A stretch of 64,000 nt of DNA, taken from Nitrospira sp. KM1. Lineage in GTDB: Bacteria > Nitrospirota > Nitrospiria > Nitrospirales > Nitrospiraceae. A program made the position numbers and the translations under genes. This document shows positions 2 to 63,567 of the stretch, piece after piece. Below the pieces are notes generated by a model, which worked only from the letters and a program-made list of their open reading frames with translations, searched no databases and was not told the origin of the DNA. The DNA is taken from NCBI RefSeq assembly GCF_011405515.1, contig NZ_AP022671.1, positions 4,030,001 to 4,094,000 on the forward strand, written 5' to 3'. The stretch's first letter is position 1, and every line of letters starts with the position of its first letter.

Positions 2-2989
<2,988 letters not shown>

Positions 2990-34645: not shown

Positions 34646-35911
34646 ATGACATCCAAGCGTACACCGTCAGTGTCACAGCTCGAACAGGCGCTTCAAGAAA
34701 AAAGCCGAGAGGTCGATGTCCTCCATCGTATTACCGATTCCATCAGCAACACGCTTGACCTTGAATCAATCCTTAAGCACATCGTTGAAATCGTCGTTGA
34801 GGTGACGCGGGCCGATGCGTGTCTGCTGTATCTGCTCTCCGACGGGGGCGATGAACTGATTCTTCGCGCCTCGAAAAATCCACATCCCCGACTCATTGGT
34901 CGCATTACCATCGGCATGGGTGAGGGGATTACCGGTTGGGTGGCTCGGGAGCGAACGCGCGTCGTCATTCCCAGTAATGCAAGCGATGATCCCCGGTTCA
35001 AATTCTTCCATAATCTTCCGGAGGATCGGCATCAGGCCTTTGTTTCCGTTCCGATCATGGCGAAGAAGGAAGTGACGGGGGTCATCAACGTTCAGCACAA
35101 GCGGCCGAAACGGTATCGGATGGATGAACTCGCGCTGCTTTCCACGATCGCCAATCAAGTTGGGGGTGCTATCGAAAATGCTCGTCTGTACGATCAGATG
35201 AGACGCAAGGCTCTCCAGGTTGAAACCTTGTCGCAAGTTTCGGAGACTGTTGCATCCAGCCGTCTTCTCGAGGACGTCATGCAATTGCTGGTCACGATGA
35301 CCGCGCAGATGATGAATTCAAAAATCTGCTCCATCATGCTGCTCGACCCGGCGACGGGAGATCTCAGAATCGAGGCTACGCAGAGCCTCAGCGAGCAGTA
35401 TCGGCGGAAGCCCAGCTTGAAGATGGGCCAAAGCGTGAGCGGCCGGGCGGTTCAAGAGCGCCGACCGATTATCGTCCTCGATGTCACGAAAGAGCGGGAC
35501 TATATGTATCCGGACATCGCCAGACGGGAAGGGTTGTCCTCGCTGCTTTCCGTGCCGATGATGGTCCGTGAGAAGGCGGTCGGGGTGATTAATAGCTATA
35601 CCTCCGTCCCGCATGTGTTCACGAACGAAGAGGTCAAGCTGCTTCAAGCTGTGGCGAACCAAGCGGCGATCGCTATTGAGCATGCGACGCTCTTGGAAAA
35701 ATCGTTCGAAATGCAGGAGGCGCTTGCCGTTCGCAAATTGCTGGAACGCGCCAAAGGCTATCTGATGCGGTCGAAAAAACTTACCGAAGAAGAAGCGTTC
35801 AAGCTCATTCAGCGTCAGAGCATGGATCTGCGTAAATCGATGCGTGAAATTGCCGAGGCAGTCCTCTTGGCGGGAGAACTCGAAGAACGCGCGGATAAAC
35901 GGCGAGGTTAG
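34646..35911 (+). CDS. GAF-GAF-ANTAR antiterminator
   Basis: A 421-residue sensor/RNA-binding protein, 12 bases after aroB. A short coiled coil (residues 9-30) leads to two GAF domains (about 30-190 and 195-355; GITGWVARERTRVV and SVSGRAVQERRPIIV are equivalent segments). The last 60 residues are an ANTAR domain: VRKLLERAKGYLMRSKKL, TEEEAFKLIQRQSMDLRK and REIAEAVLLAG carry the conserved Arg, Ala-Lys, Glu-Ala-Phe and Ala positions. ANTAR proteins bind paired hexaloop hairpins in nascent RNA and stop terminator formation. Four such target modules lie in this window (38.0, 54.0, 62.0 and 62.2 kb). The GAF ligand cannot be told from sequence. Confidence 0.93.
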   Translation: MTSKRTPSVSQLEQALQEKSREVDVLHRITDSISNTLDLESILKHIVEIVVEVTRADACLLYLLSDGGDELILRASKNPHPRLIGRITIGMGEGITGWVARERTRVVIPSNASDDPRFKFFHNLPEDRHQAFVSVPIMAKKEVTGVINVQHKRPKRYRMDELALLSTIANQVGGAIENARLYDQMRRKALQVETLSQVSETVASSRLLEDVMQLLVTMTAQMMNSKICSIMLLDPATGDLRIEATQSLSEQYRRKPSLKMGQSVSGRAVQERRPIIVLDVTKERDYMYPDIARREGLSSLLSVPMMVREKAVGVINSYTSVPHVFTNEEVKLLQAVANQAAIAIEHATLLEKSFEMQEALAVRKLLERAKGYLMRSKKLTEEEAFKLIQRQSMDLRKSMREIAEAVLLAGELEERADKRRG

Positions 35912-38022: not shown

Positions 38023-38098
38023 CGTGCCGTACAGTGAGAGGGACAATGAAGTCCTGATCAAAGGCACGGGTTACTGCGAGAGGACAATGGCGTCCTTT
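38023..38098 (+). promoter_or_regulatory. ANTAR-type dual hexaloop motif, porin-urt leader
   Basis: Hairpin P1: GGGAC (38040-38044), six-base loop AATGAA, GTCCT (38051-38055). It is enclosed by an outer stem CGTGCC/GGCACG (38023-38028 with 38063-38068). Hairpin P2: a 7-bp stem 38079-38085 with 38092-38098 closing loop AATGGC (38086-38091). Both loops have A at position 1 and G at position 4, the bases ANTAR proteins read. The loop and 3' arm of P2 are also the 5' arm of the terminator that follows, so P2 and terminator cannot form together. Confidence 0.85.
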
Positions 38099-38134
38099 TG
38101 GTCCACTTGGCGGGCCGGAAGGGCGTTTTTTTTT
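38089..38134 (+). terminator. Leader terminator before porin-urt
   Basis: A 16-bp stem with several G-U pairs (38089-38104 with 38112-38127), a 7-base loop and nine T (38126-38134). It lies 67 bases before the first gene, so it is an attenuator and not an end-of-operon terminator. Confidence 0.88.
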
Positions 38135-48831: not shown

Positions 48832-49332
48832 ATGGCAAACATGAAAAAAAGAGCCGGTGCAAAAGTCACAAGACGGCCGGTGAAAAAGAGCGTGAAGAAA
48901 TCCACCGGGAAGTCGTTGACGGCTTCCATACGGGCAGAACTGTCCAAGCCGGTTATTCCAGGTGAGATTCTCTTCGGAAGCGGCGACATCGAAGCGCTGC
49001 AAGGACGGACGACAAAAGAGATGACGATCTCGAATACTGCCGACCGCCCGATTCAGGTCGGATCGCACTGCCATTTTTTCGAAGTCAATCGTGCGCTGAA
49101 ATTCGATCGCGAGCAGGCATTTGGATTTCGGCTTCAAATCCCCGCAGGAACCGCCGTTCGGTTCGAACCCGGCGAGGAGAAACGGGTCACGCTCGTGAAT
49201 GTGGCAGGGAAGCGGATGGGGCACGGCATCAACGGATTGACCAACGGCTCGCTGGACGATCCACAGGTCAAGACGAAGGCTTTGGCCCGGGCAGGGGAGC
49301 AAGGGTTCTCGGGACAAGGAGGCGCACGGTGA
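48832..49332 (+). CDS. ureB: Urease beta subunit, N-terminally extended
   Basis: A 166-residue beta subunit. The family domain starts near residue 41 ([18 protein letters not shown]) and includes [16 protein letters not shown] and [15 protein letters not shown]. The first 40 residues are an added Lys/Arg-rich stretch; typical single-domain UreB has about 100-125 residues. ATG at 48832 follows GGAAGGAG. It overlaps ureC by 4 bases. Confidence 0.95.
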
Positions 49333-51056
49333 AGATCCCACGCAAGCAATATTCGGATCTGTTCGGGCCGACCGTCGGCGACCGCGTGCGTTTGGCGGAT
49401 ACGGATCTGCTGATCGAGATCGAAAAGGATTTCACATCCTACGGGGATGAGGCGGTGTTTGGAGGTGGGAAGGTATTGCGCGACGGCATGGGCCAATCCT
49501 CTGGAGCCACCAATGCCGGCGGTGCGCTCGACACGGTGATTACGAATGCGCTCATCCTCGACTACTGGGGGATTGTGAAGGCCGATATCGGTATTAAGAA
49601 CGGACGCATCGTCGGCATCGGGAAGGCCGGCAATCCCGACACGATGCCGAACGTGACGGCTGGAATGGAGTGCGGAGCCGGGACTGAGGCTATTTCCGCG
49701 GAAGGGTGCATCGTCACGGCGGGAGCGCTCGAAACGCATGTGCACTTCATTTGTCCGCAACAGTGCTGGGAAGCGTTGTCTGCCGGCATCACGACCATGA
49801 TCGGCGGGGGCACTGGCCCGGCCACCGGGACGAACGCGGTGACCTCGACGCCTGGTCCATGGAACATCGCCAGGATGCTGGAAGCAGCGGAAGGCATTCC
49901 TATGAACCTGGGTTTTACCGGCAAGGGAAACTGCTCGATGCCCGATGCGTTGAACGAACAGATCGAGGCCGGAGCCCTTGGATTGAAAGTGCACGAGGAC
50001 TGGGGCTCGACGCCTGCCGCCATCGACTGCGCGCTGTCGGTCGCCGATCGTTATGACGTGCAGGTGGCGCTGCATACCGACACCCTGAACGAGGCCGGTT
50101 TTGTCGAAGATACGATCAAGGCTTTCAAGGGTCGGACGATCCATACCTATCACACGGAAGGGGCGGGTGGAGGGCATGCGCCCGACATTCTCAAGGTCTG
50201 CGGAGAGCCCAACTGTCTTCCGTCTTCGACGAACCCGACGATGCCGTTCACGGTCAACACGCTGGATGAACATCTGGACATGATGATCGTCTGTCACCAC
50301 TTGAACAAAAAGGTTCCCGAAGACGTTGCGTTCGCGGAATCGCGGATCAGACGCGAGACGATCGCCGCGGAAGACGTGCTGCACGACATGGGGGCGATCA
50401 GCATGATGTCCTCGGACACACAGGCCATGGGACGGATCGGAGAATTGATCATTCGCACCTGGCAGACTGCGCACAAGATGAAACTGCAGCGCGGCCACTT
50501 GACCGAACGCGGTATTCAGCCCGGGAAGGCGCAACACGACAATTTCCGGGCAAAGCGCTATGTCGCCAAATACACGATCAATCCGGCACTCGCCCATGGC
50601 GTGGCCCATGAAGTTGGATCGGTGGAAGTGGGAAAAGTCGCCGATGTGGTGGTCTGGAAGCCGGCGTTTTTCGGGATCAAGCCCGAGATGGTTTTGAAAA
50701 GCGGCTTCATCGCGCAGGCTCAGATGGGCGATCCGAATGCGTCGATCCCGACGCCGGAACCTATCATTAGCCGGCCGATGTTCGGAGCCTATGGACGCGC
50801 ATTGGCGAGTACGAGCATCACGTTCGTTTCGCAAGTGTCGCTCGATCTGGAGGTGCCGGAGAAATTGGGCCTGCAGCGGCGCATGGTGGCGGTCAAGAAC
50901 TGCCGGACGGTCAAGAAGCGCGACCTCAAGCTCAACGATGCTCTTCCTCACATCGAGGTCGATCCGGAAACGTACGTGGTTACGGCGGACGGCGAGCGGA
51001 TCACCTGTGAGCCGGCTGTTGTTCTGCCGATGGCGCAGCGGTACTTCCTCTTTTGA
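49329..51056 (+). CDS. ureC: Urease alpha (catalytic) subunit
   Basis: A 575-residue nickel hydrolase that splits urea into ammonia and carbamate. Nickel ligands are in ETHVHF (His137, His139), the carbamylated lysine is Lys220 in GLKVHEDWG, the flap histidine is in [10 protein letters not shown], and the last ligand Asp is in [13 protein letters not shown] start overlapping ureB. All catalytic residues are present, so the enzyme should be active. Confidence 0.98.
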
Positions 51057-53957: not shown

Positions 53958-54011
53958 GGAGACAACGGAGTCTCCCAATCGACACTTCTCCGATAATGGA
54001 CAACGACGTCC
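53958..54011 (+). promoter_or_regulatory. ANTAR-type dual hexaloop motif, nadE-amtB leader
   Basis: Hairpin P1: perfect 6-bp stem GGAGAC/GTCTCC (53958-53963 with 53970-53975) with loop AACGGA. Hairpin P2: GGAC (53998-54001), loop AACGAC (54002-54007), GTCC (54008-54011). Linker 22 bases. Both loops start AA and have G at position 4. The 5' arm of the following terminator begins inside the P2 loop and uses its 3' arm, so the folds are mutually exclusive. Confidence 0.83.
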
Positions 54012-54047
54012 TCGATCCCGCTCATAGGGATTGAGGACGTTTTTTTT
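54006..54047 (+). terminator. Leader terminator before nadE-amtB
   Basis: A 14-bp stem with one G-T pair (54006-54019 with 54027-54040), loop GCTCATA and eight T ending at 54047. It might also end the ureD transcript, but its overlap with hexaloop P2 and the TTGACA upstream favour an attenuator role. Confidence 0.9.
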
Positions 54048-60473: not shown

Positions 60474-60518
60474 GGCCGACCGGGCACTTCCGTCAGGATG
60501 TCTGAAAGGAGGAGGGGA

Positions 60519-61928
60519 ATGAACGTTCGTGAGGCGTTGGAGTTTGCGAAGAAGCAGAAGGTGCAGGCGGTGGATTTGAAGTTCGTCGATCTGATGGGGA
60601 CGTGGCAGCACTTCACGATTCCGACCAGCGAACTGACCGAAGATCTGTTCAAGGACGGCAGCGGCCTGGACGGTTCGTCGATCCGCGGGTGGAAGGCGAT
60701 CAACAACAGCGACATGCTGGTCATCCCCGATCCGGCGACGGCGTGCCTCGACCCCTTTACCGCCGTACCGACGCTCAGCCTGACCGGTAACGTGGTGGAT
60801 CCGATTTCCCGAGAAAATTACGAGCGCGATCCGCGTTTCATTGCGCAGAAAGCCGAGAAATATCTACAGAGCACCAAGATCGGCGACACCTCGTTCTGGG
60901 GTCCGGAAGCGGAATTCTTTATTTTCGATCATGCCCGCTACGATCAGACCGGCCACAGCGGGTACTACTTCATCGATTCCGATGAAGGGGTGTGGAACAT
61001 GGGCCAGGAGGGAGTCAATCTGGGCGCCAAGATTCGCCACAAAGAAGGGTATTTCCCGGTGGCGCCGACCGATACGCAGCAGGACATCCGGACCGAGATG
61101 ATTCTCGAGATGGAAAAGGTCGGCATTGCGGTGGAGAAGCACCACCATGAAGTCGCGACGGCCGGACAAGCCGAAATCGACGTTCGCTTCGATACGCTGC
61201 TCAAGATGGCCGACAAAATGATGATGTACAAGTACATCGTCAAGAACGTCGCGCGCCGTCACGGCAAGACCGTCACATTCATGCCGAAACCGATCTTCGG
61301 AGACAACGGATCCGGGATGCATACGCATCAGAGCATTTGGAAGGACGGGAAACCGTTGTTTGCCGGGAAAGACTATGCCGGTGTGTCGCAGCTGTGCCTG
61401 TATTACATCGGTGGCATTCTCAAGCACGCACCGGCGCTTGCGGCATTCACCAATCCGACAACCAACTCGTACAAGCGCTTGACGCCAGGCTTCGAGGCCC
61501 CGGTGTTGCTCGCCTACTCGAGCCGAAACCGGTCGGCGGGGATTCGGATTCCCATGTATTCGCCCAGCCCGAAAGCCAAGCGGATCGAAGTACGGTTCCC
61601 GGATCCCGGATGCAACCCGTATCTGGCCTTCTCGGCGATGTTGATGGCTGGTCTGGACGGTATCGAGAACAAGATCAATCCGGGAGAGCCGGCCGAAAAG
61701 GACCTGTACGATCTGGAGGCGAAGGAGGCGGCAAAGATCAGGACCATGCCCGGCAGCCTCGATGAGGCGCTCAACAACCTTGAAAAGGATAACAAATTCC
61801 TACTCAAGGGTGGCGTCTTCACGGAGGACGTGATTGAAGCCTGGGTGAGCTATAAGCGGACCAAGGAAGTTGACGCCATGCGGTTGCGGCCCCATCCCTA
61901 CGAGTTCTTCCTGTACTATGACTTGTAG
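60519..61928 (+). CDS. glnA: Glutamine synthetase type I
   Basis: A 469-residue ATP-dependent ligase joining ammonia to glutamate. [16 protein letters not shown], metal-site FIDSDEG-less GSI core and [19 protein letters not shown] are seen. Tyr397 in [10 protein letters not shown] is the adenylylation site, so this is the GSI-beta class controlled by GlnE (not in the window). ATG at 60519 has GGAGGGG upstream; an earlier in-frame ATG at 60498 is less likely. Confidence 0.97.
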
Positions 61929-61952
61929 GGGGGAGGAATCAAAAGGAACTGC

Positions 61953-61981
61953 TTGACGGCTGTGAATGTGCGTGGTATAGA
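61953..61981 (+). promoter_or_regulatory. Sigma-70 promoter of nrt leader
   Basis: TTGACG (61953-61958, 5 of 6), exactly 17 bases, TATAGA (61976-61981). It lies 24 bases after glnA and gives a leader of about 270 bases before nrtA, all of which is occupied by hairpin structures. Confidence 0.8.
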
Positions 61982-61990
61982 TTGACCCAG

Positions 61991-62054
61991 TCGATCGTGA
62001 ACAAAGACGTTCCGGTCGATTTCAAATACTAGGCAAACGGACAAAGGCGTCCGT
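61991..62054 (+). promoter_or_regulatory. ANTAR-type dual hexaloop motif, nrt unit 1
   Basis: Hairpin P1: GAAC (61999-62002), loop AAAGAC, GTTC (62009-62012), within an outer stem TCGATC/GGTCGA (61991-61996 with 62014-62019). Hairpin P2: ACGGAC/GTCCGT (62037-62042 with 62049-62054), loop AAAGGC (62043-62048). Both loops have A1 and G4. The P2 loop plus 3' arm form the 5' arm of terminator T1. Confidence 0.85.
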
Positions 62055-62090
62055 CATTCTGAGAATGAGTGGCGGGCGCCTTTTGATTTT
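62043..62090 (+). terminator. Leader terminator T1 before nrtA
   Basis: A 17-bp stem with three G-T pairs (62043-62059 with 62067-62083), 7-base loop TGAGAAT, followed by ttttgatttt. It overlaps P2 of unit 1. Confidence 0.88.
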
Positions 62091-62096
62091 GTCCCT

Positions 62097-62121
62097 GGGA
62101 AGTCCGGAAACCGGATTTCCC
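62097..62121 (+). promoter_or_regulatory. Spacer hairpin between the two nrt units
   Basis: GGGAAGTCCGG (62097-62107) and CCGGATTTCCC (62111-62121) pair over 11 positions with loop AAA. No T tract follows, so it is not a terminator. It may insulate unit 1 from unit 2 or give a pause. Confidence 0.6.
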
Positions 62122-62141
62122 GCAGGACGTACAACGATTCG

Positions 62142-62180
62142 ATGGGTCGGCGGAGACCCGTCTTCTGGACAAAGGCGTCC
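62142..62180 (+). promoter_or_regulatory. ANTAR-type motif, nrt unit 2 (first loop degenerate)
   Basis: First hairpin: ATGGGTC/GACCCGT (62142-62148 with 62155-62161) closes a six-base loop GGCGGA, which has G4 but lacks A1. Second hairpin: GGAC (62167-62170), loop AAAGGC, GTCC (62177-62180), identical in loop and core stem to P2 of unit 1. Linker 5 bases. The second hairpin overlaps terminator T2. Confidence 0.7.
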
Positions 62181-62209
62181 TTTTCCCGAGAGGGAAGAGG
62201 ACGCCTTTT
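62171..62209 (+). terminator. Leader terminator T2 before nrtA
   Basis: A 17-bp stem (62171-62187 with 62192-62208, one G-T pair) with loop GAGA and TTTT followed by gtgttt. It lies 47 bases before the nrtA start and overlaps the second hairpin of unit 2. Confidence 0.88.
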
Positions 62210-62256
62210 GTGTTTCAGGCCGTTCACGACGACCGCGGAGCGGAAAGGGGTGAGCC

Positions 62257-63567
62257 ATGATGGATGAGCATGCGGAAACATCGGACGGATCCACGAAGAC
62301 CCGCTCTTCGGAGGAGCATCTCGAGCGGACGCTGGATCAAGCGGTCACGGCCGCAGTGCTCGAGGCTGCCGGACCGACCAGGCGCCAACTCTTGATCGGC
62401 CTCGGAGCCGCGACACTCAGTGCACTCATCGCGGAGCTGTTTCCCCTGGACAAGCTGAAGGCGTTTGCCGCCGACCCGGCCGGCAAACCGGAAAAGACCG
62501 ATGTGACGATCGGATTTATTCCGATCACATGCGGAACGCCCATCATCATGGCAGAGCCGCTGGGCTTCTATAAGAAGCATGGATTGAACGCAGCGGTGAA
62601 ACGTGCGGCCGGATGGGCGATGATTCGCGACTGGGCGGTCAACAAGGAAGTCGATGCGGCGCACATGCTCACGCCGATGCCATTGGCAATCACGCTGGGC
62701 GCGGGATCCGTTCCCACGCCGATCTACATGCCCGCCGTCGAAAACATCAACGGCCAAGCCATTACACTGCACGTCAAACATAAACACGTTAAGACCGCCG
62801 AGGAGATGAAAGGGTTCCGGTTTTGCGTCCCGTTCGATTTTTCCATGCACAATTATCTGCTCCGATACTTTCTGGCGGAAGGAGGCGTGCATCCCGACAA
62901 GGACGTGCAGATCCGGGTCGTGCCACCGCCTGAAATGGTCGCCAATCTCAAGGCGGGAAACGTTGACGGGTATCTCGGACCCGATCCGTTCAATCAACGG
63001 GCGGTGTATGAGAACGTTGGGTTCATCTTCAAGCTCTCCAAAGAGATTTGGGACCGCCATCCCTGCTGTGCCTTTACCGTGACGAAGGAATACGCGACGA
63101 CGTATCCGAATACCTTTCTGGCGATGTGGCGCGCGATCGTGGATGCCACCCACTATGCTTCGGATCCCGCGCATCGGAAGGAGATCGCGACGGCCATTGC
63201 GCCGACCAACTACTTGAACCAGCCGGTGACGGTGTTAGAGCAGGTGCTGACAGGCACGTATGCCGACGGGCTCGGCAGCATCAAGAAAGACCCGAGCCGC
63301 ATCGATTTTGATCCCTATCCCTGGCATTCGATGGCCATTTGGATCATGACGCAAATGAAACGCTGGGGTCATCTGAAGGGGGATGTCAATTACAAGGAGG
63401 TGGCCGAGCAGGTGTATCGCGCGGCGGATTGCGACCGGATCGCCAAGCAGCTCGGATACCAGACGCATCAAGGCACGTCGATGAAGCATCTGATCATGGG
63501 CCGGGAGTTCGATCCAAATCAGGCGGAGGCGTATGTGAAAAGCTTCAAGATCAATAGCATGGCGTAG
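62257..63567 (+). CDS. nrtA: NrtA/CmpA-type ABC substrate-binding protein
   Basis: A 436-residue receptor for an oxyanion, most likely nitrate or nitrite. A Tat signal with TRRQLLIGLGAATLSALIAE (about residues 44-63) exports it. VTIGFIPITCGTPIIMAEPLGFYKKHGL, GWAMIRDWAVNKEVDAAHML and YLGPDPFNQRAVYE match NrtA/CmpA. Bicarbonate (CmpA) or cyanate cannot be excluded. The signal argues against a cytoplasmic NasS-like sensor. It is preceded by two tandem attenuators. Confidence 0.88.
   Translation: MMDEHAETSDGSTKTRSSEEHLERTLDQAVTAAVLEAAGPTRRQLLIGLGAATLSALIAELFPLDKLKAFAADPAGKPEKTDVTIGFIPITCGTPIIMAEPLGFYKKHGLNAAVKRAAGWAMIRDWAVNKEVDAAHMLTPMPLAITLGAGSVPTPIYMPAVENINGQAITLHVKHKHVKTAEEMKGFRFCVPFDFSMHNYLLRYFLAEGGVHPDKDVQIRVVPPPEMVANLKAGNVDGYLGPDPFNQRAVYENVGFIFKLSKEIWDRHPCCAFTVTKEYATTYPNTFLAMWRAIVDATHYASDPAHRKEIATAIAPTNYLNQPVTVLEQVLTGTYADGLGSIKKDPSRIDFDPYPWHSMAIWIMTQMKRWGHLKGDVNYKEVAEQVYRAADCDRIAKQLGYQTHQGTSMKHLIMGREFDPNQAEAYVKSFKINSMA

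Follow-up and report, generated by a model that had tools for sequence, protein, structure and literature searches.

Two hexaloop-terminator units between glnA and nrtA

We found that the leader between glnA and nrtA of Nitrospira is, in all likelihood, built as two ANTAR-controlled transcription attenuators in series, a reading based on the anatomy of the sequence and its comparison with relatives. The features of this leader, and others in the window (the whole stretch of DNA that we analysed, 64,000 nucleotides long), are given in Table 1. Each unit, here called a gate, has a first hexaloop hairpin (P1 or P1′), a second one (P2 or P2′) and a terminator (T1 or T2). The loops of P2 and P2′ each open a terminator stem, which makes hairpin and terminator mutually exclusive in both gates. 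When folding was compared with that of shuffled sequences, T1 had -28.9 kcal/mol (z -7.2) and T2 -31.1 kcal/mol (z -7.5); both were more stable than any of the shuffles, and the entire leader reached a z of -9.1.

A first-pass annotation of this DNA had described two hexaloop-terminator units in tandem 5′ of nrtA, and coordinates, folds, conservation and covariation confirm them. The boxes of the promoter with a 17-base spacer were also found as described. The -10 box is weak, which is why a strict consensus promoter scan of the leader reported no site; of 37 related leaders, all but one (36) have a TTGAC box and, 16-18 nt from it, a TA-containing -10 box, the pair lying 53-64 nt 5′ of P2. The core GGAC-AAAGGC-GTCC is repeated as claimed, being present in both P2 and P2′. 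Five copies of GGACAAAGGCGTCC occur in the 4.5-Mb genome, three of them inside ANTAR-type leaders; the other two are without a terminator and apparently coding. Chance repeats were rejected, since the copies outside leaders look coding and lack a terminator; a chance origin is also excluded by conservation, by covariation and by presence throughout the genus. The 11-bp hairpin that had been placed between the units does fold, but it did not hold up as a part of the design: its sequence is not conserved among relatives, one of which (L008) is almost without spacer. We rejected it as a functional part on these grounds, and, judging from the sequence, it is probably not essential.

Table 1. Positions of the regulator gene, the tandem leader with its neighbouring genes, and the single leaders. 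Positions are those of the window unless a contig is given.
Feature	Position	Strand	Description and basis
GAF-GAF-ANTAR protein, presumed regulator	34646..35911	+	Pfam; ANTAR PF03861 2.2e-19
Single ANTAR-type leader, porin-urtABCDE	38041..38134	+	GGAC-AATGAA-GTCC, GGAC-AATGGC-GTCC, terminator; -25 kcal/mol; R1 32.3 bits
Single ANTAR-type leader, nadE-amtB-glnK-glnD-glnA	53958..54047	+	Fold -27.5 kcal/mol; R1 47.5 bits
glnA	60498..61928	+	Pfam Gln-synt_C/N; precedes the tandem leader in relatives examined
Promoter	61953..61981	+	-35 TTGACG (61953-61958), 17-nt spacer, -10 TATAGA (61976-61981); sequence read directly
Gate 1, P1 hexaloop hairpin	61999..62012	+	GAAC-AAAGAC-GTTC (A1, G4); fold; P1 stems covary in relatives
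Gate 1, P2 hexaloop hairpin	62037..62054	+	ACGGAC-AAAGGC-GTCCGT; overlaps terminator 1; R1 65.6 bits
Gate 1, terminator T1	62043..62093	+	17-bp stem 62043-62083, then TGATTTTGTC; terminator scan, covariation
Spacer hairpin	62097..62121	+	GGGAAGTCCGG-AAA-CCGGATTTCCC; fold; 11-12 bp, triloop
Gate 2, P1′ hexaloop hairpin	62141..62162	+	GATGGGTC-GGCGGA-GACCCGTC; fold; G1 replaces A1; G4 and closing C-G retained
Gate 2, P2′ hexaloop hairpin	62167..62180	+	GGAC-AAAGGC-GTCC; overlaps terminator 2; R1 65.5 bits
Gate 2, terminator T2	62171..62218	+	17-bp stem 62171-62208, then TGTGTTTCAG; covariation
nrtA, nitrate/nitrite ABC transporter substrate-binding protein	62257..63567	+	Pfam NMT1_2 (PF13379) 1.8e-81
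nrtB	from 63592		Operon order; ATPase gene and cynS next, past the window end
Single ANTAR-type leader, second amtB	G000:C1:4096040 (L029)		Just past the window

Covariation, conservation and history of the units

Across 27 sequences, 96.5% of the cells of the terminator stem are paired and 57 have changed on both sides, a level that none of 500 shuffles attained, and pairing falls to 46-58% when the partner is slid out of register. Position 3 of the P2 loop covaries with the 3′ arm of the terminator (A-U in 15 sequences, C-G in two, G-C in one); this pair is unformed in the other nine, which mostly have AAUGGC-/AAUGAC-type loops or shorter arms. P1 stems are 94% paired with 28 double-change cells, and P1′ stems, from 17 relatives, 97.6% paired with 16, percentages that are biased because the hairpins of both sets were selected for a hexaloop by visual inspection.

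All six other genomes of the genus that we examined have retained both units; the contig of one of them (L004) begins within unit 2. R1, a covariance model of P2 and the terminator, matches 105 of the 147 genomes of the family, and the tandem pair is present in at least 55 of the 147, 52 of these having same-strand R1 matches 91-148 nt apart; each genome was counted singly in such counts, ignoring kinship. An nrtA orthologue is encoded in 38 of the 147 genomes, with a tandem leader in 20 (seven genera), a single one in seven and none in 11. Where a genome has no nrtA, glnA is still found 5′ of the pair, and 3′ of it lies a formate/nitrite-type transporter gene with cynS (L073, L089 and N. defluvii, L129) or, in L093, cynS with a nitrite-reductase-like gene. 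Among the 47 loci searched, all but one encode GlnA. We also searched an independent named collection with the 23-base core of unit 1. This core turned up in 39 stretches, all but one of which (38) belong to records of Nitrospira or Nitrospirota, and 33 of the 39 have unit 2 after it, N. moscoviensis and N. defluvii included. The order in N. moscoviensis is glnD-glnA-[two gates]-nrtABC-cynS-[one gate]-amtB. The first-pass annotation had proposed such a search of relatives and held that unit 2 being absent or randomised in close ones would speak against it; we looked for this, and unit 2 is neither.

Outside the core, unit 1s are 0.79 and unit 2s 0.70 identical across genomes, and unit 1 is as far from unit 2 within the same genome (identity 0.64) as between different genomes (0.63). 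On these identities we rejected a recent tandem duplication, the origin that had been suggested for the repeated core; the tandem arrangement, as judged by this comparison, is old. One unit has been lost in three leaders, two with a single terminator (L069 and L071) and one with unit 2 missing (L143). The sequence 3′ of the single terminator in L069 and L071 resembles that after unit 2 in relatives, and in our own reading the loss looks as if it came about by recombination of two P2 copies.

Several leaders elsewhere deserve mention. The 11 genomes without an nrtA leader (L032-L037, L039, L043, L044, L050 and L072) have nrtA following a sigma-54-dependent-activator-like gene, which suggests changed control of nrtA in them. 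The one carrier of the unit-1 core in the named collection from outside Nitrospira and Nitrospirota records (L161, 828-5875; labelled Alcaligenaceae) has an ordinary single NasR-type leader before nirB, and we read the protein encoded beside that leader as a NasR-like NIT-ANTAR. Matches of the P2-terminator model are also seen outside the family, in genomes of family f2 and of other classes of the phylum; by these matches, ANTAR leaders are likely phylum-wide. In another Nitrospiraceae genome, G032, a separate tandem ANTAR-type leader with four A1/G4 hexaloops precedes a 298-aa lipoprotein-like ORF (L162, G032:C8:346800-350200, at about 1550-1740, minus strand).

A GAF-GAF-ANTAR protein is the presumed regulator

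The genome (4,509,223 bases, one contig) encodes a single ANTAR domain in total, in a GAF-GAF-ANTAR protein whose gene lies 26 kb upstream of the tandem leader. Pfam identified two GAF domains and the ANTAR domain in this protein and no NIT domain. It aligns to the ANTAR domains of EutV, NasR, AmiR and Rv1626. Of the residues through which EutV contacts RNA (6wsh), R142, K143, K149, E160, M172 and R175 are kept, and K147 is changed to R, Y164 to F and R168 to Q; residue numbers are from the publication, and the matching of positions is ours. At the position of EutV Y164, Rv1626 has F and NasR has W. The system would work like NasR/nasF, yet its regulator is not a NasR.

An ANTAR domain is encoded in 99 of the 147 family genomes, nearly always in one copy. 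Leader and ANTAR gene are both present in 96 genomes and both missing in 39, with 12 discordant (Fisher p 2e-23, kinship ignored); three of the discordant genomes have an ANTAR gene but no R1 match, nine have a match but no ANTAR gene, and some of these genomes are incomplete. Many genomes of group g5 have neither ANTAR gene nor leaders.

There are four ANTAR-type leaders in the genome, three single and the tandem one before nrtA. From the genes that they precede, we propose a regulon for the use of urea, ammonium, nitrate/nitrite and cyanate and for glutamine synthesis. Within the ORF of the urease alpha-subunit (49329-51056), a match to the Rfam family 5_ureB_sRNA lies antisense at 49481-49768 on the minus strand; it probably reflects coding homology.

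The first loop of gate 2 rarely has A at position 1

We took as first loop the best hairpin with a 6-nt loop upstream of each P2, unconstrained in sequence. Position 1 of this loop is A in 31 of 32 gate-1 and 31 of 33 single elements, and in P1′ of gate 2 (n=33) it is G in 24, T in five and A in four. Thus, a base other than A stands there in 29/33 gate-2 loops vs 3/65 gate-1 and single elements together (Fisher p 3e-17, a value not to be taken literally as the sequences are related). The other landmarks of the first loop are retained: G4 in 30/32 gate-1, 33/33 gate-2 and 32/33 single leaders, and the closing C-G in 31/32, 33/33 and 32/33. P2 carries A1 and G4 in 34/34 elements of the gate-1 set, as does P2′ in 34/34 gate-2 elements. 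The five cases with T at position 1 are g5-type leaders, and those that we read also have a nearer GTGGCA loop. For gate 2 of N. moscoviensis, the choice of a hairpin upstream of P2′ gave no clear P1′ hexaloop. The linker between the hexaloops measures 21-30 nt in gate-1 and single leaders, and 4-10 or 23-46 nt in gate 2.

The description of the units as ANTAR-type was accurate overall, except that the first loop of unit 2, GGCGGA, is not an A1/G4 loop. Gate 1 has two hexaloops with A1 and G4 (AAAGAC and AAAGGC), as strictly defined for an ANTAR target; in gate 2, AAAGGC of P2′ conforms and GGCGGA of P1′ does not, so that gate 2 resembles ANTAR targets in anatomy without being a strict member. 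Rfam reported nothing in the leader at gathering score; RF00625 (P11, which we take to be the NalA leader) scored 27.1 bits at 62082-62205 and 17.2 bits at 61942-62080, below its gathering score of 70 bits. The closing C-G, part of the consensus obtained by NasR SELEX (PMC7496416), is present in both gates of the window, P2 overlaps the terminator, and the genome contains an ANTAR gene.

In the EutV structure, G4 stacks on Tyr164; no contact is seen for A1, whose proposed role is to block a pseudotriloop (PMC8934654). Mutating position 1 was reported to reduce binding (PMC3369931). By analogy with this role of A1 in the EutV structure and mutants, gate 2 may be weaker or need P2′ only. With a P1′ that lacks A1, or no clear P1′ as in N. 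moscoviensis, gate 2 may act via P2′ alone or respond differently.

Discussion

In the mechanism that we propose, RNA polymerase would start near 61988 and meet gate 1 (P1, P2 and T1) first and gate 2 (P1′, P2′ and T2) second. Without active ANTAR protein, P2 or P2′ would pair into the terminator and transcription would stop at ~62084-62093 or 62209-62218; that both sites terminate is what we infer from the sequence. A nitrogen-related signal would activate the GAF-GAF-ANTAR protein. The activated protein would bind the hexaloops and stabilise the small P2 or P2′ hairpin at the expense of the terminator, allowing nrtABC-cynS to be transcribed, and by analogy with the NasR, EutV and NasT systems ANTAR binding would free transcription. 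The genes from nrtA on are probably read only once both stops are overridden. Basal read-through would be the product of the two leak rates, simply by arithmetic, because both gates must be passed; leak would thus be reduced multiplicatively, and the response may also be sharpened, as the first-pass annotation proposed for two gates in series. The variant first loop of gate 2 (G1, G4) may confer a different affinity. One tentative extension is an asymmetric two-threshold switch, in which one GAF-GAF-ANTAR protein serves consecutive attenuators with differently tuned recruitment loops (A1 in the first gate and G1 in the second). The level of active regulator required by nitrogen-oxyanion or cyanate genes would then be higher than, or different from, that for the urea and ammonium genes behind a single gate.

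The departure of P1′ from A at position 1 (29/33 vs 3/65) could also mean that P1′ has decayed, A1 having been lost, and that gate 1 is the sole regulated attenuator, unit 2 being vestigial or a constitutive partial terminator. The N. moscoviensis gate 2 without clear P1′ hexaloop fits this explanation, as do the lineages that dropped one unit (L069, L071 and L143). However, G4 and the closing C-G persist in 33/33 P1′ loops, the P1′ stem covaries, and P2′ keeps A1 and G4 in 34/34 while overlapping a covarying terminator. A decayed unit would not retain such features across many genera, and we consider this explanation unlikely.

Conversely, gate 2 could be the real gate of nrtA, and gate 1 could chiefly yield a terminated RNA of ~100 nt whose two hexaloops titrate the ANTAR protein, much as hexaloop sponge RNAs do in Enterococcus and Listeria. 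RNA released at T1 would indeed hold both canonical A1/G4 hexaloops, and unit 1 is more conserved in sequence than unit 2 (0.79 vs 0.70), but unit 1 lies on the strand of nrtA behind the same promoter and has the form of an ordinary single leader, and a stable small RNA is without support; we rate this possibility as quite improbable. That the leader merely holds two ordinary intrinsic terminators, for example at the end of glnA, free of ANTAR control, would agree with the strength of both hairpins and the T-rich tails after them. It would leave unaccounted for a conserved promoter upstream of both terminators, hexaloops with G4 and closing C-G, their co-occurrence with an ANTAR gene and the same structure at the head of other nitrogen operons, and we regard it as very improbable indeed. 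We retain serial ANTAR control by both gates as the most probable reading of the leader.

Among known systems, Klebsiella oxytoca NasR-nasF and Pseudomonas NasT-NalA before nirBD share with the Nitrospira leader the A1/G4 dual hexaloop with closing C-G, the overlap of the second hairpin with an intrinsic terminator and the nitrogen-oxyanion assimilation genes downstream (PMC7496416, PMC12830290). They differ in that one unit per leader has been described, whereas the Nitrospira leader has two in series with G1 in the first loop of the second, and in their regulator, a NIT-ANTAR protein (or NasT with NasS) instead of a GAF-GAF-ANTAR protein. The Enterococcus faecalis EutV eut regulon likewise has several dual hexaloop ANTAR attenuators (four sites), with G4 contacting the ANTAR domain, and a eut linker of 14 nt or lengthened by 20 nt impaired or abolished function (PMC3369931, PMC8934654). 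Hexaloop linkers count against our reading, as those of gate 1, at about 20-30 nt, are longer than in E. faecalis eut (5-12 nt); gate 2 spans 4-46 nt. The four eut sites precede different genes. In Desulfotomaculum acetoxidans, six nitrogen-gene transcription units together carry at least 13 ANTAR attenuators, so several per unit, and the main text of the report does not state whether any are paired in series in one leader (PMC3369931). The remark of the first-pass annotation that tandem ANTAR attenuators are rarely noted is plausible but, given these numbers in D. acetoxidans, not proven. Salmonella mgtCBR also has two attenuators in one leader (PMC3641672), but there it is the translation of two leader ORFs, and not an RNA-binding protein, that exerts control.

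ANTAR leaders before nitrogen genes, including those of nitrate transporters, were already known (PMC3369931), as were tandem attenuators as a concept (PMC3641672). Nitrospira are important among nitrite oxidisers, and a search confined to the main texts of an open-access collection found no paper on ANTAR control in them and none that links ANTAR to tandem terminators. The conserved double attenuator, with its built-in loop difference, offers a natural test of why position 1 is conserved despite making no contact in EutV, and of what a second attenuator contributes beyond the first. The distribution of single gates on urea and ammonium genes and of the double gate on nitrate/nitrite and cyanate genes suggests a hierarchy of nitrogen sources.
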